This document shows positions 21,371-62,249 of a DNA stretch of 64,000 bases, piece by piece. The stretch is from positions 29,014 through 93,013 of the IMG/VR virus record IMGVR_UViG_3300044796_000222. One strand, given 5' to 3'. The notes below the pieces were generated by a model. The model was not told the origin of the DNA. It saw nothing but the letters and a program-made list of their open reading frames with translations, and made no database searches. The position numbers and the translations under genes were made by a program. Source of the DNA: a virus. Every line of letters begins with the position of its first letter. Position 1 is the stretch's first letter.

Positions 21371-23047
21371 TTAGAATCCGCGACCCTTGCGCTCGTACAT
21401 GGAGAGAACACCTTCGGGAGCCCAGCCATCCGGCGCGGTCGGCTTGAACGCTTCTGGAACTTCGTCGCCCACACGCTCGACGCCACCCTTGGTCATCGAT
21501 CCTGCGGCGTACTGGTCGTAACTGGTGCGGGCGCCGGAGACCTCGATCGTGAAGTCGGCGCCGCCGAGCGCGTCGTAGGCCCAAGCCATCGCGTCGACTT
21601 GATCATCGTGAGGATCGCTAACGCCAGTGAAGGCGAGAACCTCGGATTGGAACTTGTCGATCCACTCGTACTGCGCAGACGCTGACTCATCCTCGATCCC
21701 ATACCGATCGCCTTCTGGCGACACGCACGGGTTGGGAAGCAGAATCAGCCCAGCATTCCAGGCCGCCGCAACCGGCTGGGCGCGGACGAACTTATCAGAG
21801 CGCGTGATGTCGATCTGAAAGTTCAGCGATGGACCGGAGTATGACTTGGCTTCGCCGCGACCGCGATTGCCGTCGACGCCACCGAACTCAGAGTCGTCGT
21901 CCTTCGCGTTCATCAGGTCGAGCGAGCCGGCCTCGACGCTGGCGACGTAGCCGCCGATGCGAGCGCTGGGATACTCTCGACGAAGGCCGCGAAGCACGGC
22001 CCTGAACTGCGGAGTCGCCGCGTGCATCCTGATAACCTTCAGGACGTAGTAGATGCCTTTGTGGAGCATCATCACGACTGCGGCGGCGTAGTCGGATGAC
22101 GTCTTCGCCGAGTAGGCCAGGTCGCACCCGATGGCGATCCTGAAACTGTCTACAGGTAATTCGTTGGCGGCGTATAGAGCGACGCCGTTGAAAACGGAAC
22201 CACCCTTTCGACGCGGGCGACAGTCGTATAAGCACGCCCACTCGTATTCTCCGATTTTAGATCGGATTGTGGTAAGCGCTTTGACTGGCCATCGTTCGGG
22301 CCAGAGCGATGTCCCTGCCTCTCGCCCTGTCGGGTCGTCCTCGCCAGCGATTGCTGGCAAGCAGATCGTTTCCCAATCTCCGTCGCCGCTCTTTATCTGC
22401 CTTCCCTGGAGATCGTCGTCATGCCATCTCGTGTGGCACACTATAACGGAGCCGTTTGGCTCTCGACGCGTCAAAGCCGTCGACTGGAACCATTCGCTAA
22501 CTGCTTCGCGCTTGATCGCGGACTCTGCGGCGGCTCTGTCTTTGTGGGGGTCGTCGACAAATATGCATTGTGCGCCGAAGCCTGTCAGGCTCCCACCTAC
22601 ACCCACAGCAATCACCCCCCCACGATTCGAGGTGCGCCACTCGCTTTTGGAGTTCGTCTCTTTCGAGAATTCGACCCCGGCGAGCCTGGCGTACTCCCGC
22701 GCCTTCGATGACTGGAATAGCGCGAGTTTCGATGAGTAGGACGCGTATGCGATCGTCCAGTCCGAATGGCTGACGAGCAGCCACGCGATTGAATGAAGCA
22801 ACGTCTCGGATTTTGAAAAACGAGGCGGCACGCTGAGCAGGGCGAATACTTGCTCGCCGGATCGAATGCGCTCCAACACGGAAAGTAGCGGGGCCAGGTG
22901 GAGTGGTTTGCTAAACTTCGGCGAAATCCTAGGAATGAAGTCCGCCAGCGACTCCGAAGATCCACGCGTCGTCTGAAGTTGCGTCTCGATCTGCCTCTTG
23001 TGAGGTTCGAGAACCTCATCGAGAATGCTGCGCTTGCCACCAGCCAT
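21371..23047 (-). CDS. terL: Terminase large subunit (packaging ATPase/nuclease)
   Basis: This 558-residue protein is the motor that packages phage DNA. The N-terminal ATPase shows a deviant Walker A (PPRFSKSETLL, Lys79), a coupling/Walker B region (CIFVDDPHKD, Asp165-Asp166) and an RW motif in VIVCHTRWHDDD. The C-terminal RNase H-like nuclease has IAIGCDLAYS (Asp309), VEAGS (Glu372) and PHDDQVDAMAWA near 479-490 with the last acidic residues. It starts one base inside the TerS stop (TGATG). A shortened, degenerate copy of its ATPase half is encoded at 37223-37912. Confidence 0.92.
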   Translation of the reverse strand: MAGGKRSILDEVLEPHKRQIETQLQTTRGSSESLADFIPRISPKFSKPLHLAPLLSVLERIRSGEQVFALLSVPPRFSKSETLLHSIAWLLVSHSDWTIAYASYSSKLALFQSSKAREYARLAGVEFSKETNSKSEWRTSNRGGVIAVGVGGSLTGFGAQCIFVDDPHKDRAAAESAIKREAVSEWFQSTALTRREPNGSVIVCHTRWHDDDLQGRQIKSGDGDWETICLPAIAGEDDPTGREAGTSLWPERWPVKALTTIRSKIGEYEWACLYDCRPRRKGGSVFNGVALYAANELPVDSFRIAIGCDLAYSAKTSSDYAAAVVMMLHKGIYYVLKVIRMHAATPQFRAVLRGLRREYPSARIGGYVASVEAGSLDLMNAKDDDSEFGGVDGNRGRGEAKSYSGPSLNFQIDITRSDKFVRAQPVAAAWNAGLILLPNPCVSPEGDRYGIEDESASAQYEWIDKFQSEVLAFTGVSDPHDDQVDAMAWAYDALGGADFTIEVSGARTSYDQYAAGSMTKGGVERVGDEVPEAFKPTAPDGWAPEGVLSMYERKGRGF

Positions 23048-23580
23048 CAGTGCGTAGTGGCCGCGTCGATGTCCGCGAGAACGCTGTCCTGCGTGATCGT
23101 CTCGGACTCGTCGGCGTCAATCTCTTGCGCGCGGGTCATCGCGGTCATGATCCGCTGCATCAACTGCGGCTCGTTGGCGAACTCACTGCGGAGTGCCACG
23201 ACAAGCCCGTTGAGCGTGGCCTTCAGGACGGCGCGCGTGTTCGGGTGGAACTCTTGCGGCATCTGCCGTTCGATGACCCAGCACGCCAACTTCGTGTCGA
23301 GCCCCGCCGGGTTGTCAACGTCGAGGCCCGCTTCGATCACATCGAGCGCCTTGTCAACGAGAATTGACTCGGCCCTCTGCGCCCTCTCGAAGAACTGCGC
23401 GAACGGGCTATCGCCTTGGTCGGCGAGTCGGCGCCACGTCACCCATCGAGCGGGCGTGACGCCGAGTGACCGAGCGGCGCGAGCAAGCGGGACGCCCTTG
23501 GATGACTTCTCGATGATCTGGCGCGCAAGCTCCTGCGTCAGACCGCATCGAGTCACCCACTGAGCATCGCCGCCGGCCAT
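23047..23580 (-). CDS. Terminase small subunit-like protein
   Basis: This 177-residue protein directly precedes the large terminase and overlaps it by one base. The N-terminus has a helix-turn-helix (QIIEKSSKGVPLARAARSLG), fitting the DNA-recognition domain of small terminases. An amphipathic helical region follows (RAESILVDKALDVIEAGLDV), the usual oligomerisation part, then a helical C-terminus for contact with TerL. The assignment comes from the domain plan and gene order; sequence similarity among small terminases is generally low. Confidence 0.75.
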   Translation of the reverse strand: MAGGDAQWVTRCGLTQELARQIIEKSSKGVPLARAARSLGVTPARWVTWRRLADQGDSPFAQFFERAQRAESILVDKALDVIEAGLDVDNPAGLDTKLACWVIERQMPQEFHPNTRAVLKATLNGLVVALRSEFANEPQLMQRIMTAMTRAQEIDADESETITQDSVLADIDAATTH

Positions 23581-29026: not shown

Positions 29027-29072
29027 CTCCCTCCCCTTGACACCTTCCCTACTTCTGGTGTACGCATTCAAC

Positions 29073-30434
29073 ATGTCCGCTGAGAAGACCCACCAGCGAA
29101 TTGTTCGGGAATTAGACCCAAACAACGAGGTGCTGACGTCTTTTCGCAAATACGCGGGAACCAAAAGGCTTGTCTACAACTTGTACTTGGAGGCCGCCCA
29201 GACGCTCTTTCACTCGTGCCAAGACAAGGTACGCTTCCTCAAGAAGAACGACTTCAAGCGGGAGTTCACTGCGCGTAGGCACTCAGACTTCCCTTGGATG
29301 GACGAAATCCCATCCAATCTCATCGAACTTGCTATCGATGACGCCGATCGTGCCTATCAAAACTTCTACGCCGCTCGCAAGAAGGCTAGGAAGGTGGGAC
29401 TCCCTCGTCGAAAGAAGAAAGGCAACGCACGAGACTCCTTCCGCTTCCGAAACGAGCTAGTCAAACTTCTAGACCGTCGGCATATACACGTCTCCAAGAT
29501 CGGCCGGGTCAGACTCAAAGAGCCCCTTCGCTTCATCAAAGACCAACGGGTCGTAAGCCTCACAGTCTATCGCGAAGCCGATCGCTGGTTCGGATCGTTT
29601 CTGGTCGAAGAACCCTTGGCCACACCTGTTCCGCCTACTAATCCGATCGTGGGAGTAGACCTCGGGGTCCTCACGTTCGCGACCGTTTCGGACGGTTTCA
29701 GCTACCAAAGAGTCGCTCACACCAACGCTCTCAAGTCCTCATTGAAGCGTCTCCAACGTCTTAGTCGTCAACAGTCACGAAAGGAAAGGGGCTCAAACAG
29801 CAAGAAGAAAGCCACCATGAAGCTCGCCCGACAGCATAGGCGAGTGAAGAATATCCGAGAGACGCAGATCCACAAGCTCACCACGAAGCTGGCGAAAACC
29901 AAGTCAGTCGTCGTGATCGAGGACCTCAACGTCTCTGGGATGGTGAAGAACAAGAACCTAGCGCGATCCGTCATGGATCAAGGGTTCGGGATGGTCCGAC
30001 GCCAGTTGGAGTACAAGACCAAGAAGTTCGGGTCTCGCCTCCTCGTGGTCGATCGGTTTTTCCCGTCCTCGAAGCTGTGCTCTGTGTGCGGGTTCAAGTG
30101 CGAGAAGATGCCTCTTAGTGTGAGGCGTTGGAGTTGCGTCAAGTGCGGCGCAACCCACGATAGGGACGAGAACGCCTCGGAGAACCTGAGGCAAGAAGGC
30201 CAACGCATGTTGGCTAACGATTTAGTACCCCAAATGCTGGGGGAATTTACGCCTGAGGAGATCCCTCTGGGGGTGGACGGCACGATGATGGGGTGCACTG
30301 GAAGCACCCCAGAGGCGTCTACTGCCCATGGGTCGTTGAACCAGGAAGCGGGCTCAACGTGTGGGAAGTCCTCACGTACGGTAAGTCCCGTCAATGCCGG
30401 AGGCTCCCCACTCGTGGGGGAGCCTACCGGATAG
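29073..30434 (+). CDS. tnpB: TnpB RNA-guided nuclease
   Basis: This encodes 453 residues from the ATG at 29073; GTG 29058 and TTG 29037 are alternative starts. The nuclease uses an omega RNA to cut DNA. The N-terminal part is the OrfB helix-turn-helix/REC region. RuvC motif I is IVGVDLGVLTFATV (Asp196), motif II is VVVIEDLNVSGM (Glu283), and the zinc finger C-S-V-C-G ... C-V-K-C-G lies before RuvC III HDRDENASENL (Asp365). All catalytic positions are present, so it is probably active. The C-terminal ~65 residues extend beyond the usual end over the putative guide RNA region. Confidence 0.9.
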   Translation: MSAEKTHQRIVRELDPNNEVLTSFRKYAGTKRLVYNLYLEAAQTLFHSCQDKVRFLKKNDFKREFTARRHSDFPWMDEIPSNLIELAIDDADRAYQNFYAARKKARKVGLPRRKKKGNARDSFRFRNELVKLLDRRHIHVSKIGRVRLKEPLRFIKDQRVVSLTVYREADRWFGSFLVEEPLATPVPPTNPIVGVDLGVLTFATVSDGFSYQRVAHTNALKSSLKRLQRLSRQQSRKERGSNSKKKATMKLARQHRRVKNIRETQIHKLTTKLAKTKSVVVIEDLNVSGMVKNKNLARSVMDQGFGMVRRQLEYKTKKFGSRLLVVDRFFPSSKLCSVCGFKCEKMPLSVRRWSCVKCGATHDRDENASENLRQEGQRMLANDLVPQMLGEFTPEEIPLGVDGTMMGCTGSTPEASTAHGSLNQEAGSTCGKSSRTVSPVNAGGSPLVGEPTG

Positions 30435-30628: not shown

Positions 30629-31753
30629 ATGATCGACAGGCTGTGCATCCAAAAGTTGCTCGACGAGCGCGGTTTCGACGAAGCGTTCCTCGTCTCCAAC
30701 TACGGCATCAAGGCGCGCGTCGATCGCACGCACCCGAACCTCGTCCTGTTCAAATACGACCAGATCGCGTCGCCGATGGGCGAGAGAATCGTACAGGAGT
30801 GTCGCGGTGTCATCCTCGACAAGTCCGACGGTTGGTCGGTCGTCTCGCGCGCCTTCGACAAATTTTTCAATCACGGTGAAGGCCATGCCGCACCGATCGA
30901 TTGGTCCACGGCGGCGGTGCAAGAGAAGCTCGACGGGTCGCTCTGCGTGCTCTACGCCTACGACGGCAAGTGGCGCGTCGCGACCACTGGCACGCCTGAC
31001 GGCTTCGGCGACGTGAACGGATTCGGCATCACGTTCGCCGACTACTTTTGGAAGACGTTCAACGCGTGCGGAGGCCGTCTTCCGACGATCGACTCGACCG
31101 GACGTCATCCATCGCAGTTCTTCTTCGAACTGTGCGGCAAGTTCAACCGCGTCGTCGTGAGGCATGAAACGGATCGCGTCGTCGCTCTCGGCGCCCGTCA
31201 CGAAGGCAAAGAAGTCGGACCGCACTTCGCCGCTGACGCCACCGGCATCGCGCCCGTCCAATGCTTCTCACTCCAGTCGTTCGACGACATCGCCGCGACC
31301 TTCGGCGCGCTCAGTCCGCTCGCACAAGAGGGCTACGTGGTCGTTGACGCCGACTTCCGACGCGTGAAGGTCAAGCATCCCGGTTACGTCGCGCTTCATC
31401 ACGCGAAGGACGGACTTGGTCCGAAGGCGTTTCTTCAGATCGCCCGCTCCGGCGAGACATCCGAAGTCCTGTCCGCCTTCCCAGAGTTCCGAGAGCACAT
31501 GGAGCAGGTGAAGGCGAAACTCGACGCACTCATCGCCGAGACGGATGCCACCTACGCGGCGCATCGCCACCACGAAGTTCAGAAAGACTTCGCGATCGCG
31601 ATCAAGGATTCGCCTGGACGTGCAGCGATGTTCTCGATCCGATCTGGACGGCATCGCGACGCTCGGCACTACTACGCCGAGACGCAGATCGATCCGTTGA
31701 TGCGACTGCTTGGCCTGAAGGCCGAACAGCAGGCCGAAGGAGACGCGACATGA
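30629..31753 (+). CDS. RNA ligase, T4 Rnl1 family
   Basis: This 374-residue protein seals RNA ends (ATP-dependent 3'-OH/5'-phosphate joining), in T4 used to repair tRNA cleaved by host defence nucleases. The nucleotidyl-transferase motif I is QEKLDGSL, with Lys100 as the AMP-accepting residue; T4 Rnl1 uses Lys99. Upstream QECRGVILD and FDKFFNHGEG match the Rnl1 segment KFFNYGE. Downstream FFFELCGKF and EGYVVVD plus RVKVKHPGYV fit motifs III, IV and V. The gene has GGAG before its ATG and overlaps the second ligase by ATGA. Confidence 0.9.
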   Translation: MIDRLCIQKLLDERGFDEAFLVSNYGIKARVDRTHPNLVLFKYDQIASPMGERIVQECRGVILDKSDGWSVVSRAFDKFFNHGEGHAAPIDWSTAAVQEKLDGSLCVLYAYDGKWRVATTGTPDGFGDVNGFGITFADYFWKTFNACGGRLPTIDSTGRHPSQFFFELCGKFNRVVVRHETDRVVALGARHEGKEVGPHFAADATGIAPVQCFSLQSFDDIAATFGALSPLAQEGYVVVDADFRRVKVKHPGYVALHHAKDGLGPKAFLQIARSGETSEVLSAFPEFREHMEQVKAKLDALIAETDATYAAHRHHEVQKDFAIAIKDSPGRAAMFSIRSGRHRDARHYYAETQIDPLMRLLGLKAEQQAEGDAT

Positions 31754-32712
31754 GCGAGTTCCACGTTGAGGTCGTGCGCCTCGGACCAATCACTAAACAT
31801 CCGAACGCGGACACGCTGTCGATTACGATGGTCCATGGGGGCTATCCGGCGATCGTGCGAACGGGCGACTTCAAAGAGGGCGATCTCGCCGTCTACGTTC
31901 CGGTCGACGCGATCGTGCCAGAGACGCCGCGCTTCTCGTTTCTTGGCGTCCACCGTCGAATCAAGGCGAAGCGTCTGCGCGACGTCTTCTCGATGGGCCT
32001 TCTCATCGCCGCCGATCCCGGCATGGTCGAAGGCCAAAATGTCGCGGAAGCGCTCGGCATCACGAAATGGGAACCCGACAACCCGACGGAGGGAAGCGCT
32101 GACGAGCCTGATCGCGGCGCGATGCCTTGCTACACCGACATCGAAGGTCTGCGCCGTTGGAAATACGCGCTCATCGAAGGTGAGGAGGTCGTCATCACCG
32201 AGAAGATCCACGGCGAGAACTTCCGCGCCGTCCATGACGGTGAGCGCCTCTGGGTTGGCTCACGAACACGCTTGAAGTTGCCAGTTGAGAACGACGGCAA
32301 GTGGTGGTCGGCGGCACGGCGCGCTGGCGTTCCAGAGGCGTTGGCGAAGATGCCAAACGTCATCATCTTCGGCGAGTCTCACGGCTACACCGGAGGCTTC
32401 CCGTACGGTACCGGGCGGCAACCGACGCTGCGTCTATTCGACGCGATGGACGCGAAGACGCGGAAGTACCTCGATTGGGACGACTTCGTTCGCGTGACAG
32501 ACGAACTGTCGTTGCCGCGCGTTCCGGTCCTCTATCGCGGTCCGTGGAATGCAGAGCTGGTCGCGTTGGCGGAAGGATCGTCGACCATTGACTCCTCGCA
32601 TGTCCGCGAGGGCATCGTTGTGAAGCCCACGCGCGAACGATCCGGCGAGCAGATCGGGCGCACGATCCTGAAGATCCACGGCGAAGGATTTCTCACCAGA
32701 AAAGGCGCGTAA
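31750..32712 (+). CDS. RNA ligase, DraRnl (Rnl5)-like family
   Basis: This 320-residue ligase is of a different family from its neighbour. The N-terminal ~100 residues form an OB-like module (KHPNADTLSITMVHGGYPAI, GDLAVYVPVDAIVP) as in Deinococcus DraRnl. Motif I is TEKIHGENFRA (Lys152). Then follow IFGESHGYTGGFPYG (motif III region), HVREGIVVKP (IV) and RTILKIHGEGF (V). DraRnl seals nicked RNA or RNA-containing duplexes. It is coupled by ATGA to the Rnl1-type gene. A ligase pair of two families suggests complementary substrates, which is an inference. Confidence 0.85.
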   Translation: MSEFHVEVVRLGPITKHPNADTLSITMVHGGYPAIVRTGDFKEGDLAVYVPVDAIVPETPRFSFLGVHRRIKAKRLRDVFSMGLLIAADPGMVEGQNVAEALGITKWEPDNPTEGSADEPDRGAMPCYTDIEGLRRWKYALIEGEEVVITEKIHGENFRAVHDGERLWVGSRTRLKLPVENDGKWWSAARRAGVPEALAKMPNVIIFGESHGYTGGFPYGTGRQPTLRLFDAMDAKTRKYLDWDDFVRVTDELSLPRVPVLYRGPWNAELVALAEGSSTIDSSHVREGIVVKPTRERSGEQIGRTILKIHGEGFLTRKGA

Positions 32713-32729
32713 GCGAACGGGAACCACAA

Positions 32730-33275
32730 ATGCCAAGACGATGGGCGCAAGAGTTGACGGCGGAGATGATCGGTCTGAATCCGACGATCGTGAAGCGTTT
32801 CTGGGCGCAGGTCGCGGAGCCAAATGAGCGCGGGTGCCGGCTGTGGACCGGAGCGCTACGAGGCAAGACCGGCTACGGCTGCATGAAGGTCAACAAGAAG
32901 GTCTACGACACGCACCGCCTCGGCTTCGTAATCCGATTCGGAACAGTCAGCGCCGGCAGAGTGGTGCGCCACTCGTGCGACATCCGCCGCTGCGTAGAAC
33001 ATCTTCTGATCGGCTCTTCGGCCGACAACCATCGCGATATGGTAGTCCGTGGGCGCGCCGTAACGCCAGCGCAGATGAGCGCGAAAATGAAGGCGCTTGG
33101 CCATCGTCCGCCACCGCCGAAGCGAACACTCAACCCAGAGCAGGTTCGGCTGGTTCGGATGCGGGTCAAGGCTGGCGATACGCACCAATCGATTGCTGAC
33201 GATTTCGGCATTTGTCGGCAATCGATCACGATGATTGTCGGCGGGAGAACCTATACGGATATCGCGAGCGCGTGA
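32730..33275 (+). CDS. HNH endonuclease with C-terminal HTH
   Basis: This 181-residue free-standing HNH nuclease, likely a homing enzyme, lies at the end of the plus block. The HNH region runs CRLWTGALRGKTGYGCMKVN, KKVYDTHRLGFVIRFG, then VVRHSCDIRRCVEHLLIGSS with ADNHRDMVVRG. This is the common phage pattern GYG, AHR, VCHxCDxPxCxNPxHL, xxDNxxDM. The C-terminus has LNPEQVRLVRMRVKAGDTHQ ... ADDFGICRQSITMI, a resolvase-type HTH for target recognition. The domain plan equals that of the HNH gene at 57073-57603. Confidence 0.85.
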   Translation: MPRRWAQELTAEMIGLNPTIVKRFWAQVAEPNERGCRLWTGALRGKTGYGCMKVNKKVYDTHRLGFVIRFGTVSAGRVVRHSCDIRRCVEHLLIGSSADNHRDMVVRGRAVTPAQMSAKMKALGHRPPPPKRTLNPEQVRLVRMRVKAGDTHQSIADDFGICRQSITMIVGGRTYTDIASA

Positions 33276-36532: not shown

Positions 36533-36847
36533 TCAACAGCGGTAGAGAGTCTGCTCGTCGGGGCTCACGCCGCCGATGATCGGTTGGCTCGCCTTCGAGC
36601 CCTTCAGCGTTTCGATGGGATGCTTCTTCTTCGTCGGCTTCGCCTCTTCTGGCGACGTCGGCAGCGGCGGCGCATGCGCCTCGCTCAACGCCTCTTGCTG
36701 CGCGGCTGGAAACGACGGGTCGATCTCGTGGATGAAGACAAGCGCAAGGTGACGTCGAATCATGTCGGCTTGCGCAGACGAGATGGGGCCGCCCTCGCGC
36801 AGTTCCATGAAGCCCTGCAACCAGTAGCAAAAGTCGCGCGACGTCAT
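36533..36847 (-). CDS. Small phage protein (FCYWLQGFMEL family)
   Basis: The ATG at 36847 overlaps the previous stop (TGATG). The 104-residue product begins MTSRDFCYWLQGFMELREGG and has MIRRHLALVFIHEIDPSF. This FCYWLQGxxEL / HLxLVFxHxIDP pair is typical of a widespread uncharacterised phage family. The second half is Pro/Lys-rich and likely disordered. Confidence 0.75.
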   Translation of the reverse strand: MTSRDFCYWLQGFMELREGGPISSAQADMIRRHLALVFIHEIDPSFPAAQQEALSEAHAPPLPTSPEEAKPTKKKHPIETLKGSKASQPIIGGVSPDEQTLYRC

Positions 36848-37212
36848 CACGACTTCGCCTTCATCCGCTTTTCGACAACGAGAAGCGCGCGAACGACGGC
36901 GCGATTGCGAGCGCCGCCAGCAACGGTGCGCTCTGCGGCACGAGCCGCGCGCTTGACGCTGCGACGCTGGTCGGCCTTCGCGTAAGCGATGGCGCGCACG
37001 GCGTTGTAGGCTGACATCGGCTTGTAGTTGACGTGAGTGCCGGTCGCTTCACCGCCGCACTTCTCGCCGCGACCGAGGCCGCCCTTGGAGCCGCCGCCAC
37101 GGAACTCGCCGCGCACCTTGCGCTCCTGTTCCTTCATGCCAGGCATCGCGGACATCGCCGCGACGGAGGCCATGATGCCGAGCAATGCCGACCGATTCAT
37201 TCCCTTACTCAT
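36847..37212 (-). CDS. Unknown protein with possible signal/anchor
   Basis: The ATG at 37212 has AAGGAG five bases upstream. The 121-residue product has a hydrophobic N-terminal segment (ALLGIMASVAAMSAMPGM), then a Gly-rich region (GEFRGGGSKGGLGRGEKCGG) and an Arg/Lys-rich C-terminus. It could be a membrane-anchored or exported small basic protein. No family is recognised. Confidence 0.7.
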   Translation of the reverse strand: MSKGMNRSALLGIMASVAAMSAMPGMKEQERKVRGEFRGGGSKGGLGRGEKCGGEATGTHVNYKPMSAYNAVRAIAYAKADQRRSVKRAARAAERTVAGGARNRAVVRALLVVEKRMKAKS

Positions 37213-37222
37213 CTCGTCTCCT

Positions 37223-37912
37223 TCACGGCTCCTGCATGTACATCGTTGCCCAATCATACGGATCGATCTTGCGGCGGATGCCTTCGAGTGCGAACGTTGG
37301 CCATCGCGACGGCCACACCGATTCGCCACTGCTATCAAGCGCCGGAATCTTGATCTGCTCCCACGGCACTCCACGCGCCTTCGCCTTGTAGAGTTCTCCG
37401 AGCACGTCATCCTCCATCCAACGATTGTCGCAGACCACGATCGAGCAGTCCGGCATCGCGCGGGTGAAGAGTGTCTGGTCGATCCATTCCAAAATCGCCC
37501 CACGCTTCACCCGGTTGTCGGCGACCACTCGATCTTTGATCGGCGAATCGAGCACGATCAGATCGGCTCCGACGCCGGTCAACGAACCGCCAACGCCGCA
37601 CGGAACGATTCCGTGTTTCCACGCTCCGACGCCGACGCTCGAATCGCCGGCCTGGAGTTGCGAGACCTTGGCGCCGGCCAACTTGTCCGAATAGGTGGCG
37701 TAGATGAACGAGCCCGACTTCCGCGCCTCCGACATCCACGCAAGCGCGTGCAGCAAGGTCGACGATCTCGCGAATCGTGGAGGTGCAGCGATGGTCGCGA
37801 AGACGCGTTCACCGGAACGGATGCGCTCGAAAGCATCGAACACTGGCGCCATGTGCATCGGCGCCTCAAGCGCTGGCGACCTGTGCGTGATGTAGTCGGC
37901 GAGAGAGGTCAC
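37223..37912 (-). CDS. TerL-like ATPase-domain paralogue without nuclease
   Basis: This 229-residue protein starts at GTG 37912, overlapping the previous stop (GTGA). It aligns by eye with residues ~35-275 of the large terminase at 21371-23047: LADYITHRSPALEAPMHMAP, IRSGERVFATIAAPPRFARS, GVGGSLTGVGADLIVLDSPI and CSIVVCDNRWMEDDVLGELY. It ends with YDWATMYMQEP just where the terminase nuclease would begin. At the Walker A position the terminase Lys79 is Arg49 here, and the second Walker B acid (Asp166) is Ser123. It is therefore likely a nuclease-less, probably ATPase-deficient derivative, perhaps a regulator of packaging or a DNA- or portal-binding decoy. Confidence 0.85.
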   Translation of the reverse strand: MTSLADYITHRSPALEAPMHMAPVFDAFERIRSGERVFATIAAPPRFARSSTLLHALAWMSEARKSGSFIYATYSDKLAGAKVSQLQAGDSSVGVGAWKHGIVPCGVGGSLTGVGADLIVLDSPIKDRVVADNRVKRGAILEWIDQTLFTRAMPDCSIVVCDNRWMEDDVLGELYKAKARGVPWEQIKIPALDSSGESVWPSRWPTFALEGIRRKIDPYDWATMYMQEP

Positions 37913-38076
37913 GCTTGCCCCGCAACCATCTCGACACGCCCGCGCAAGATGTGGCCGAGCAAGAAGATCGCGTCGTAAAACGGGTCCAGTTGCGCCGCCG
38001 TGCCGTCCCAGATCGAAGGGAAGCCTTTCGATTTCGATCGTGTAGCCGGGATCTCTGTCTGCGTTTCGTTGGTCAT
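37909..38076 (-). CDS. Small protein upstream of TerL paralogue
   Basis: This 55-residue ORF (ATG at 38076, GAAGAGG upstream) ends by overlapping the paralogue start (GTGA). It has a basic N-terminal region (ATRSKSKGFPSIWDG) and a hydrophobic helix (FYDAIFLLGHILRGRVEMV). It is the first gene after the minus promoter at 38141-38168. Function unknown. Confidence 0.65.
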   Translation of the reverse strand: MTNETQTEIPATRSKSKGFPSIWDGTAAQLDPFYDAIFLLGHILRGRVEMVAGQA

Positions 38077-54137: not shown

Positions 54138-56291
54138 ATGAACGTCACCAGCCCGCAGAACGCACCCGCCCCACGTACGCAGAAGTTCGGCCTTCCCGAA
54201 GATGCCAGCGCGCGACCCGTCGTCGTCGACGAGTTCCCGTCGTTCGCACGCATCGTCGCAGCGTCGTTCCAAGACATGGCGAAGGGCACGAACGTCTTCG
54301 TTGCTGACGTGGATGGCGACGAATTGTATGCGAGGTACCTCGCCGCATTCCCGCCTGGCACCGATCCGTTCTTCAGGAAGACGACCGAGCACGACTGCTC
54401 ATGCTGCAAGCACTTCATCCGTCGCGCGGGCGCTGTCATCTCCGTCGTCGACGGGAAGATCCGAACCGTGTGGGACGAGGCCGCTGAGAGCGCTCCCGAC
54501 TTCTACACCGACGTCGCGAAGGCGCTCCGAGATGCCGTTCGTGCGGCTGGCATCCGCGACCTCTTCCGCGTGGGGAAGAACGAGACGCAGTTCGGATCTC
54601 AGCAGACGCGATCGCTCGACGCAGAGACGCAGAAGACGGTCGCGTGGAGCCACTTCTTCACTGGCGAGATCCCGAGTCGCTTCCGCGCGGACTTGCCCGA
54701 CACCGATCGCGGGAACTACCGCACCACCGTCCAAGTCTTCGAGCGTGGCCTCACCGAGTTGTCGCCGAGCGCCGTGGAGACCGTTGTGTCGCTCATCGAG
54801 GCGAACAGCCTGTACCGTGGTGAGGAGCACAAGCGCGCCGTCACCGAGTTCCAGAAGATGCAGCGCGAGTTCCTGGCGAAGAGCGCATCGGAGCGGCTCG
54901 TCTACGCGTGGGCGAACGCCAGCAGTCCGGCGGCGCGCTTCCGAAACACGGTCATCGGCACGCTCGTGCAAGAGCTGTCGGAAGGCAAGGACTTGGAGCA
55001 AGCGGTCAAGGGCTTCGAGACGAAGGTCGCGCCGCAGAACTACAAACGGACGACGGCGCTCATCACGCCTGGCATGGTCAAGAAAGCGATGGAGACCATC
55101 GAGGAGCTTGGCCTCGAACCCGCGCTCGAACGCCGCTTCGCTGTCATCGGCGACGTCTCGGTCAACGACGTGAAGTGGGTCGACGGCGCGGCCCGACCCT
55201 TGATGAAGGGCGGCATCGGCGACGTGCTGATGAAGCACGCGTCCGCAGCGACCGATGCTGGCAAGGATGAGGAGCGCGCCGAAGACATCTCCATCGACGA
55301 CTTCATGTCCAAGATCCTTCCCGACGTCACCGGCATGGATGTCTTCTTCAAGGGCGCACACTCCGGCAACCTGATGTCGCTCACTGCGCCGGTCCATCCA
55401 GAGCCGAAGCAACTGTTCCGCTGGACGAACGACTTCGCGTGGTCCTACGGCGGGAACGTTGCCGACAGCATCAAGGAGCGCGTGAAGAAGGCTGGCGGTA
55501 GCGTTGTCGGCACGCTTCGCGTTTCGCTCTCGTGGTTCAACTACGACGACCTCGACCTGCACGTTCACGAGCCTCAAGGTCGCGGCATCGGCGGCGCGAT
55601 GAATGAGATTTTCTTCCGCAACAAGCGCGGCTGGACTGGCGGCACGCTCGACGTGGACATGAACGCTGGCACCGGCCAGACGCGGGAAGCCGTCGAGAAC
55701 GTCATCTGGCCGAACAAGGCGCCCGACGGCGCCTACCGGATCGTAGTCAACAACTACACATTTCGCGAGTCCGCCGACCCTGGATTCACCATCGAGATCG
55801 AGTGCGCTGGAAAGGTCTCTCACTTCTCACACAACAAGGCCGTTCGTCATGCTCAGGACATCACCGTCTGCACGATCCACATGAAGAACGGCGTCGTCGA
55901 GCGCTTCGAGCCGGGCGATGCGGGCATCACTTCGTCAGTCATCTCGCAAGACAAGTGGGGCCTGAAGACCGAGCAATACGTCAAGGTCAACGCCGTCATG
56001 CTCAGCCCGAACTTCTGGGGTGACAATGCCGTCGGGAACAAGCACACGTTCTTCGTCCTCGACGGCGCGAAGAGCGACGAGGACACGCGAGGCTTCTACA
56101 ACGAGTTCCTGCACCCGCGCCTCGAACCGCACCGGAAGGTCTTCGAGATCATCGGCGACAAGACGAAGTGCCGACCGACCGAAGGGCAACTGTCGGGGCT
56201 CGGTTTCTCGTCGACCAAGAAAGACGCGTTCCTCGTCCGGGCCAAGTTCGGCAAGAAGACCCGCCTGTTCAACATCCACGTCGGCGCGTGA
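54138..56291 (+). CDS. Large phage protein with DUF2135/YfaP-like domain
   Basis: This 717-residue protein, the largest non-virion gene here, is uncharacterised. Residues ~85-105 hold HDCSCCKHFIRRAGAVISVV, a Cys cluster like that of uncharacterised large phage proteins I recall. The centre is helical and charged. Residues ~457-570 match the DUF2135/YfaP pattern: TLRVSLSWFNYDDLDLHVHE with the D-x-D-L-H-V motif, GGTLDVDMNAGTGQTREAVE, then APDGAYRIVVNNYTFRES. This beta-sandwich domain is found in several bacterial surface or defence-linked proteins. No catalytic motif is visible. It has its own promoter. Confidence 0.82.
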   Translation: MNVTSPQNAPAPRTQKFGLPEDASARPVVVDEFPSFARIVAASFQDMAKGTNVFVADVDGDELYARYLAAFPPGTDPFFRKTTEHDCSCCKHFIRRAGAVISVVDGKIRTVWDEAAESAPDFYTDVAKALRDAVRAAGIRDLFRVGKNETQFGSQQTRSLDAETQKTVAWSHFFTGEIPSRFRADLPDTDRGNYRTTVQVFERGLTELSPSAVETVVSLIEANSLYRGEEHKRAVTEFQKMQREFLAKSASERLVYAWANASSPAARFRNTVIGTLVQELSEGKDLEQAVKGFETKVAPQNYKRTTALITPGMVKKAMETIEELGLEPALERRFAVIGDVSVNDVKWVDGAARPLMKGGIGDVLMKHASAATDAGKDEERAEDISIDDFMSKILPDVTGMDVFFKGAHSGNLMSLTAPVHPEPKQLFRWTNDFAWSYGGNVADSIKERVKKAGGSVVGTLRVSLSWFNYDDLDLHVHEPQGRGIGGAMNEIFFRNKRGWTGGTLDVDMNAGTGQTREAVENVIWPNKAPDGAYRIVVNNYTFRESADPGFTIEIECAGKVSHFSHNKAVRHAQDITVCTIHMKNGVVERFEPGDAGITSSVISQDKWGLKTEQYVKVNAVMLSPNFWGDNAVGNKHTFFVLDGAKSDEDTRGFYNEFLHPRLEPHRKVFEIIGDKTKCRPTEGQLSGLGFSSTKKDAFLVRAKFGKKTRLFNIHVGA

Positions 56292-57072: not shown

Positions 57073-57603
57073 CTACGGGAGGTGAGTCCAGGTATGACGC
57101 ATTATGACGCGCGATACGCTGCGTCTGGACATTCCAATATCTGATGCGATAACGCGCGCAATATCACCGCCCGCTGCGCGCTGTCGTATGATCGCGACCA
57201 TACTATCAGTGAGGCGAGCACGCGGATTTAGTTCACCCTTCACTGGACGACTATACGTTCGCCCCTTCCGGGCGCAGTCTTTGTTGTTGTCCGCTGCCGT
57301 ACCAGCGAACAGGTGCGCCGGATTAGCGCATGGCGGGTTATCACAGCGATGGCAGACGAACAGCCCGTCGATCGCGACGCCAGAGAGGGCCATCGCAACT
57401 CGGTGAGCGCTCAGCGCTTTGCCTGCGCACACAAATTGGCCGTACCCACATGTATCCAAATGCCCTGTCCACGGCCAACAGGCGTCGTGACCACCACTGT
57501 TGTCCACGCGCGACCAAAGCACGCACGCCATTGAGCAGTAGAATCTACTGATGGACATATCGTGGGTTGCGCCACAACACTTGCATGCATATACTTTCGA
57601 CAT
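57073..57603 (-). CDS. HNH endonuclease with C-terminal HTH
   Basis: This 176-residue homing endonuclease (ATG 57603, AAAGGA upstream) has an N-terminal zinc knuckle (CKCCGATHDMSISRFYCSMA). Then comes the HNH core: CWPWTGHLDTCGYGQFVCAG, SAHRVAMALSGVAIDG, FVCHRCDNPPCANPAHLFAG, TAADNNKDCARKGRTY. The C-terminal RLTDSMVAIIRQRAAGGDIA ... DIGMSRRSVSRVIMRHTWTH is an HTH target-reader. The same two-domain plan as 32730-33275 suggests one homing-gene type copied in this phage family. It converges on the plus block end at 57070. Confidence 0.88.
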   Translation of the reverse strand: MSKVYACKCCGATHDMSISRFYCSMACVLWSRVDNSGGHDACWPWTGHLDTCGYGQFVCAGKALSAHRVAMALSGVAIDGLFVCHRCDNPPCANPAHLFAGTAADNNKDCARKGRTYSRPVKGELNPRARLTDSMVAIIRQRAAGGDIARVIASDIGMSRRSVSRVIMRHTWTHLP

Positions 57604-61562: not shown

Positions 61563-62065
61563 GGCGACACCGCGGCTTGCTCGATCTCTTCACCGTCATC
61601 GTCATCGTCATCGTCATCGTCATAGACGGGACACTTCCGACCGTAGACGCGCAGATATCGATCGTTGGATTCCGGCACCTCCGCGAATCGAGTCTCGACG
61701 CCACCCTCGTAGGTCGCCTCGTACTCCCAGCCGCCCTCGTCGATCGACTCTACGTCGAACCGTGCGAGCGGATACATCGCGGCGAGCTTGGCGAAGATCG
61801 GACGCGGCACACCGTTCGCCGTTTGAAACGTGAACATGAACCGACGCGAATCAACGCCGCGATCGATGCGTTCCTTACGATCGTCGGGCATCAATTCGTC
61901 GAGCGATACGCGGCTCCATTCGTAGTTCCACGTTCCTCCGCGTTGAACGACGAGCATTTGGCCGTTACTATGGCGCGGACGCTCGATGACCAATAATTCT
62001 TCGCGATCGGATTTCCTAAGCACAACCATCGCTTCGACAGGCGGCCAGATGTTCGGTTGTGTCAT
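61559..62065 (-). CDS. Protein with acidic (poly-Asp) tail
   Basis: The 168-residue product has an N-terminal beta domain (VEAMVVLRKSDREELLVIER, GGTWNYEWSRVSLDEL), then a RPIFAKLAAMYPLARFDVES, GGWEYEATYEGGVETR segment like uncharacterised phage proteins with an F..L...yP...f...y.deGGw pattern. The C-terminal region has a run of nine Asp, coded by a GATGAC repeat at 61595-61624. It overlaps both neighbours. Confidence 0.72.
   Translation of the reverse strand: MTQPNIWPPVEAMVVLRKSDREELLVIERPRHSNGQMLVVQRGGTWNYEWSRVSLDELMPDDRKERIDRGVDSRRFMFTFQTANGVPRPIFAKLAAMYPLARFDVESIDEGGWEYEATYEGGVETRFAEVPESNDRYLRVYGRKCPVYDDDDDDDDDGEEIEQAAVSP
61595..61624. repeat. Hexanucleotide microsatellite GTCATC x5
   Basis: Five near-perfect copies of GTCATC on the plus strand (last copy GTCATA) run in frame with the gene on the minus strand, coding Asp-Asp pairs. 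Copy number could change by slippage without shifting the frame. Confidence 0.8.
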
Positions 62066-62249
62066 CTCTTCCTCGGTTCAACAGGCACGACGCGGGCGAA
62101 CTTTCGGTCCTGCGGAGCATAGTTGCCGTCGATTGCGTCCTGCGCAAGTTCACGCGTCAGGAAAGTCTCGCCGACGCCTGGGAACCAGACGCGTTGCCAG
62201 CCGCCTTCGCAGCCGCGCGGGGAGACGCGGAGCTCGACTGCGAAGGATG

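Follow-up and report, generated by a model that had tools for sequence, protein, structure and literature searches.

The packaging motor is usually described as a homomeric ring of the large terminase subunit, TerL. The ATPase domain of D6E TerL forms pentamers when isolated, and ATP is hydrolysed at the subunit interfaces, with the P-loop arginine R44 and the catalytic glutamate E143 acting in cis and R158 in trans (PMC5727402). Subunits of this enzyme that are dead in cis (E143A or R44A) are partly rescued by a subunit that is dead in trans (R158A; PMC5727402), and T4 motors with ATPase-dead subunits still package, but at a lower speed and with additional pauses and failures (PMC8589836). 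The target of recognition by Avs1-Avs4 is either the large terminase or the portal (PMC12931631, PMC11249213).

The locus described here belongs to a virus record of 93,013 bp, of which bases 29014-93013 were analysed as a window of 64,000 nucleotides. The window encodes an intact TerL, which adjoins TerS and portal, and a second, stand-alone protein; sequence, trees and fold support its identification as a nuclease-less, probably ATPase-inactive TerL paralogue.

21371..23047, minus strand: the phage's own TerL, 558 aa, with intact ATPase and nuclease domains
23047..23580, minus strand: small terminase, TerS (phrog_4102)
37223..37912, minus strand: stand-alone paralogue of the TerL ATPase domain, 229 aa, GTG start, TGA stop

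The paralogue is identical to the phage's own TerL at 99 of 248 alignment columns (40%, BLASTP E-value 6e-55), which confirms the proposal of the initial annotation that the gene aligns with the N-terminal half of this TerL; the shared stretches named there (IRSGE-VFA, PPRF, and GVGGSLTG) are present in the alignment. In a PHROG scan, the protein corresponds to the terminase large subunit phrog_38 (E-value 1.7e-26) over the ATPase portion only, and a Pfam scan of the paralogue gave no match. Six-frame searches of the whole 93-kb record, either with the paralogue as query or with a 40-sequence profile, retrieved the paralogue and TerL loci only. The paralogue spans TerL residues 33 to Pro278 (its own Pro229). 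The 32-residue N-terminal extension of TerL is missing, as are the linker and the C-terminal RNase H-like nuclease domain, and the gene stops just before both, i.e., where the nuclease should begin, as had been remarked from the sequence. A search with the nuclease half of TerL, covering any frame of the 93-kb record including the neighbourhood of the gene, found no second copy or remnant.

A structure model, one of the checks suggested beforehand, was obtained with AlphaFold2 and is confident (pLDDT 91.8, pTM 0.90). It comprises a complete ASCE and lid ATPase domain, the only poor stretch being residues 93-97, at a deleted loop. In a structure search, the model is closest to TerL structures. 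Its best PDB match is PhiV-1 TerL bound to Avs3 (PDB ID: 8dgc, TM 0.75 by query length), and a short TerL model from Salmonella phage 36 is found among the fold-search matches. Direct sequence search of the paralogue against the PDB gave no match.

The regions in which catalytic residues are lost or kept are as follows:

37760..37777, minus strand: Walker A region, residues 46-51; PPRFARS against PPRFSKS in TerL, with Arg46 kept and Lys replaced by Arg49
37610..37666 (approximate), minus strand: two deletions (9 and 4 residues) relative to TerL, basic loop lost
37541..37549, minus strand: Walker B end, residues 122-124; LDSP against VDDP in TerL, with Asp122 kept and the second acid replaced by Ser123
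37460..37462, minus strand: Arg151, candidate trans-acting arginine, kept (TerL Arg194)
37415..37429, minus strand: motif III; H-T-R-W-H in TerL, D162 N163 R164 W165 M166 in the paralogue

Conservation was assessed by aligning the two proteins with 26 related TerLs. The ATPase domain contains 48 near-invariant columns, of which the phage's own TerL keeps 46 and the paralogue 31. The two replacements reported in the initial annotation, i.e., Arg49 for the Walker A lysine (TerL Lys79) and Ser123 for the second Walker B acid (TerL Asp166), are both as claimed, and the original residues are 100% conserved in the 26 related TerLs. Within motif III, TerL H205, T206, and H209 correspond to D162, N163, and M166, the changes of the threonine and of the second histidine being further losses of fully conserved residues; approximately 13 residues are deleted from a stretch that carries several Lys and Arg in TerL. 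The paralogue keeps Asp122, Lys126, Arg128, Arg137, Arg151, Arg164-Trp165, Asp168-Asp169, and Gly172, together with the C-terminal Trp and Pro landmarks of the TerL ATPase domain; the position of Arg151 is invariant in 40 aligned sequences. Hydrolysis of ATP at the protein's own site is predicted to be lost owing to the Lys-to-Arg and catalytic Asp-to-Ser replacements and the altered motif III, and DNA cutting is predicted to be lost with the nuclease domain. From established knowledge of P-loop ATPases, we infer that the paralogue would not hydrolyse ATP normally.

The word "degenerate", originally applied to the gene, suits the lost catalytic residues, but not the protein as a whole, which looks constrained and is modelled as an entire domain. 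Its frame is still open at an overall nucleotide identity to TerL of 51%; neutral simulation at equal divergence produced approximately six stops on average and an open frame in 0 of 300 runs. Nucleotide identity between the two genes is 54, 64, and 34% at the first, second, and third codon positions, respectively, and the GC3 of the paralogue (0.76) is like that of neighbouring genes. Agreement with TerL is 70% at positions that 90% or more of TerLs have in common, and drops to 21% where fewer than 20% share the residue. The retention test (positions conserved in at least 90% versus less than 50%, Fisher p 1e-6) mixes changes on both branches and hence supports constraint without proving it. 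These patterns support a paralogue that still appears constrained, and not an artefact or a product of simple decay.

In two maximum-likelihood trees, the paralogue is the sister of the phage's own TerL (support 98/89 and 97/97), a placement that needs caution because of its long branch (1.46-1.72 against 0.41-0.45 for the own TerL, about 3-4 times longer). Duplication within the own TerL lineage would be the simplest reading of this placement, and acquisition of the domain from a very closely related phage may be considered as an alternative origin. The initial annotation had suggested looking for the same stand-alone gene in related phages and had regarded orthologues with intact Walker motifs as evidence against its interpretation. 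The 74 related viral records contain one TerL match each, and the loci fetched from viral and bacterial contigs contain no stand-alone ATPase-only ORF; as many of the records are fragments, this absence of other copies is suggestive only. No orthologue with intact Walker motifs turned up in the same records and loci. Two short ORFs in Methylobacterium contigs resemble pieces of ordinary TerLs.

A pattern search of viral contigs yielded no close relatives of the paralogue, the major capsid protein and GroES used as anchors gave no confirmed sister phage, and a megablast search of phage records with the surrounding 12 kb gave no match. With phrog_1735 as anchor, 80 records were found and 50 searched; a TerL match of this type is present in seven and the short frame in none. 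The corresponding 717-aa protein (54138-56291, plus strand) is of unknown function and up to 76% identical to proteins encoded on very large phage contigs, and this phage's TerL type is missing from most very large phage contigs with the phrog_1735 protein. In the open-access literature, outside which most subscription journals lie, nothing relevant was found on TerL paralogues or on duplicated or truncated terminases.

The immediate neighbours of the paralogue are the following:

37909..38076, minus strand: 55-aa ORF, immediately upstream, with a TGA that overlaps the paralogue GTG by 4 nt
36847..37212, minus strand: 121-aa ORF, beginning 10 nt past the paralogue stop, with an AGGAG ribosome-binding site
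36533..36850, minus strand: 105-aa ORF of the same cluster (phrog_28500, unknown function)
35644..about 35970, minus strand: GroES-like co-chaperonin of the same cluster, approximately 1.3 kb downstream of the paralogue

These genes form a tight minus-strand run (the 55-aa ORF, the paralogue, the 121-aa ORF, three more small ORFs, and GroES) approximately 14 kb from TerL, and translation of the 55-aa ORF and of the paralogue is likely to be coupled. The description of the gene as lying in a different operon from TerL agrees with this separate cluster, but "next to GroES" is loose, as four ORFs lie in between. The same minus-strand region contains a radical SAM protein (PF04055, 40347-41942, minus strand) with a weak PADLOC match to pVip (viperin, E-value 1e-8); apart from this match, the PADLOC scan of the paralogue and its neighbours detected no defence family.

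Several further features of the record are described here in their own right. A gene at 29037-30434 (plus strand) is IS605 OrfB/TnpB-like (PF01385, with a Cas12f1-like TNB domain), and adjacent RNA-ligase-like genes at 30629-31753 (phrog_562) and 31750-32712 (phrog_968), both on the plus strand, possibly constitute an RNA repair pair. The genes at 32730-33275 (plus strand) and 57073-57603 (minus strand) are paralogous (28% identity, E-value 4e-14) and represent the only other clear paralogous pair among the coding-like ORFs; they are HNH-like by eye, and the first has no Pfam match. An inverted repeat of approximately 400 bp (91% identical) occurs at 61852-62249 of the window and 1752-2146 of the record, i.e., near both ends of the 93-kb record.

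It is about an even bet that the gene encodes a maintained, dead, ATPase-only subunit that either regulates packaging in mixed assemblies or serves as a decoy for TerL-sensing immunity. The narrower proposal, in which a TerL module, duplicated or taken from a very close lineage, is maintained as a dead pseudo-subunit that regulates motor assembly or packaging, is the leading one and is put forward tentatively, its chances falling somewhat short of even. It is favoured by the homology, the sister placement, the confident fold, the loss of K79 and D166 with retention of Arg46 and Arg151, the retention that rises with TerL conservation, and the coding pattern; the location of the gene outside the packaging operon speaks against it. 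On the D6E and T4 precedents, a role as cap, brake, or gate is ranked first; a decoy is ranked second. The roles suggested in the initial annotation (tuning of packaging, oligomer assembly, or a decoy) thus all remain candidate functions.

In such a mechanism, the ASCE and lid module would fold like the TerL ATPase domain and associate with TerL, or with its docking partners TerS or portal, via the conserved ATPase-ATPase interface. With its own site dead, its nuclease absent, and its basic loop residues lost, it might still supply Arg151 in trans to a neighbouring TerL, and would thereby act as a cap, a brake, or a gate on the assembly of the motor or on packaging; we infer the interaction with TerL, the loss of ATPase activity, and the regulatory effect. 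By analogy with D6E, the paralogue looks like a naturally cis-dead and possibly trans-competent subunit, Arg46 matching R44 and Arg151 matching R158 by position, and with both arginines retained, the ring-subunit version takes a concrete form. Like D6E R158, Arg151 lies after a long helix and before the strand that follows, so that topology and spacing suggest its role in trans, the profile match to D6E being below significance. Docking of TerL motors on the portal is considered to involve mostly the nuclease or C-terminal region. As the paralogue lacks this region, its entry into an active motor cannot be taken for granted, and capping or off-portal inhibition would be equally plausible.

Among the competing explanations, a decoy against TerL-sensing Avs systems has to be taken seriously, although it is unlikely when considered by itself: a folded but harmless look-alike of TerL, produced from a separate operon, would occupy host Avs-type (STAND/NLR-like) sensors and keep the real TerL from triggering abortive infection. 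Recognition of large terminase or portal by Avs1-Avs4 is in line with this, and a retained fold with lost catalysis is what a decoy requires. The closest solved structure being an Avs3-bound TerL makes this version worth testing; however, the top rank of 8dgc also reflects the small number of solved TerLs related in sequence and so does not count as evidence for binding. Moreover, the sensor might be switched on, and not blocked, by a folded TerL domain. Avs3 contacts both TerL domains, one of which is missing here.

Somewhat less probable is a neofunctionalised protein acting outside packaging, e.g., as a nucleotide- or nucleic-acid-binding adaptor. The long branch, the changed motif III with the loop deletions, and the locus away from the packaging genes would fit such a role, whereas the concentration of retained residues at TerL-conserved positions and the preservation of the entire ASCE and lid unit argue against it. 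A functionless leftover of TerL duplication, heading for loss, is improbable: the gene is a singleton in all collections searched, evolves on a fast branch, and has lost its catalytic residues, but its open frame at the observed divergence, strong coding signature, end exactly at a domain boundary, and operonic start/stop overlap with a ribosome-binding site all point the other way. More doubtful still is a weapon against competitors, in which a dominant-negative subunit would poison the motors of other phages or of satellites that co-infect the cell and have related TerLs; dead subunits do slow and stall T4 motors (PMC8589836), but the paralogue is most similar to the own TerL and would harm its own phage first unless interface changes discriminate, and the scanned proteins, which represent the annotated part of the record, include neither an integrase nor a lysogeny module. 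A split or frameshifted terminase, or an assembly or sequencing error, is very improbable despite the short TerL-annotated models in public data, given the intact TerL elsewhere in the phage, motif losses that are substitutions and not frame errors, and the lack of a second nuclease-like sequence in any frame; a frameshift restoring a full terminase, which the initial annotation had named as counter-evidence, was looked for downstream and rejected, as there is no nuclease fragment for it to restore.

If the preferred reading, a dead pseudo-subunit beside an active TerL, or its decoy variant is true, there is at least one phage that has adopted a heteromeric or a decoy strategy. The paralogue would then offer a ready-made reagent for studying TerL subunit coordination, with cis and trans functions apparently separated by nature; as a decoy, it would represent a phage counter to a broad sensor class recognising a protein that the phage cannot easily change.

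Compared with TerLs of the phrog_38 type, the paralogue is homologous across the ASCE and lid ATPase domain and shares the fold and the Gly/Trp/Arg framework; it differs in having neither nuclease nor N-terminal extension, in its replaced Walker A Lys and second Walker B acid, altered motif III, and loop deletions, and in being encoded in a separate operon beside an intact TerL. Its boundary is that of the isolated ATPase constructs of D6E, P74-26, and T4 gp17 (the D6E module ends before the linker at 230-241, PMC5727402; the paralogue has 229 aa), and its model matches them structurally, but those are laboratory truncations, whereas the paralogue occurs naturally and its catalytic residues are lost. 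The ATPase-defective subunits doped into T4 gp17 motors also combine dead with live TerL subunits, although they are laboratory point mutants of full length with the nuclease (PMC8589836). Phi29-type gp16, with its vestigial nuclease, is likewise a packaging ATPase that has naturally lost nuclease function (PMC7672431); unlike this active motor, the paralogue has lost its ATPase site and is encoded alongside a full TerL.
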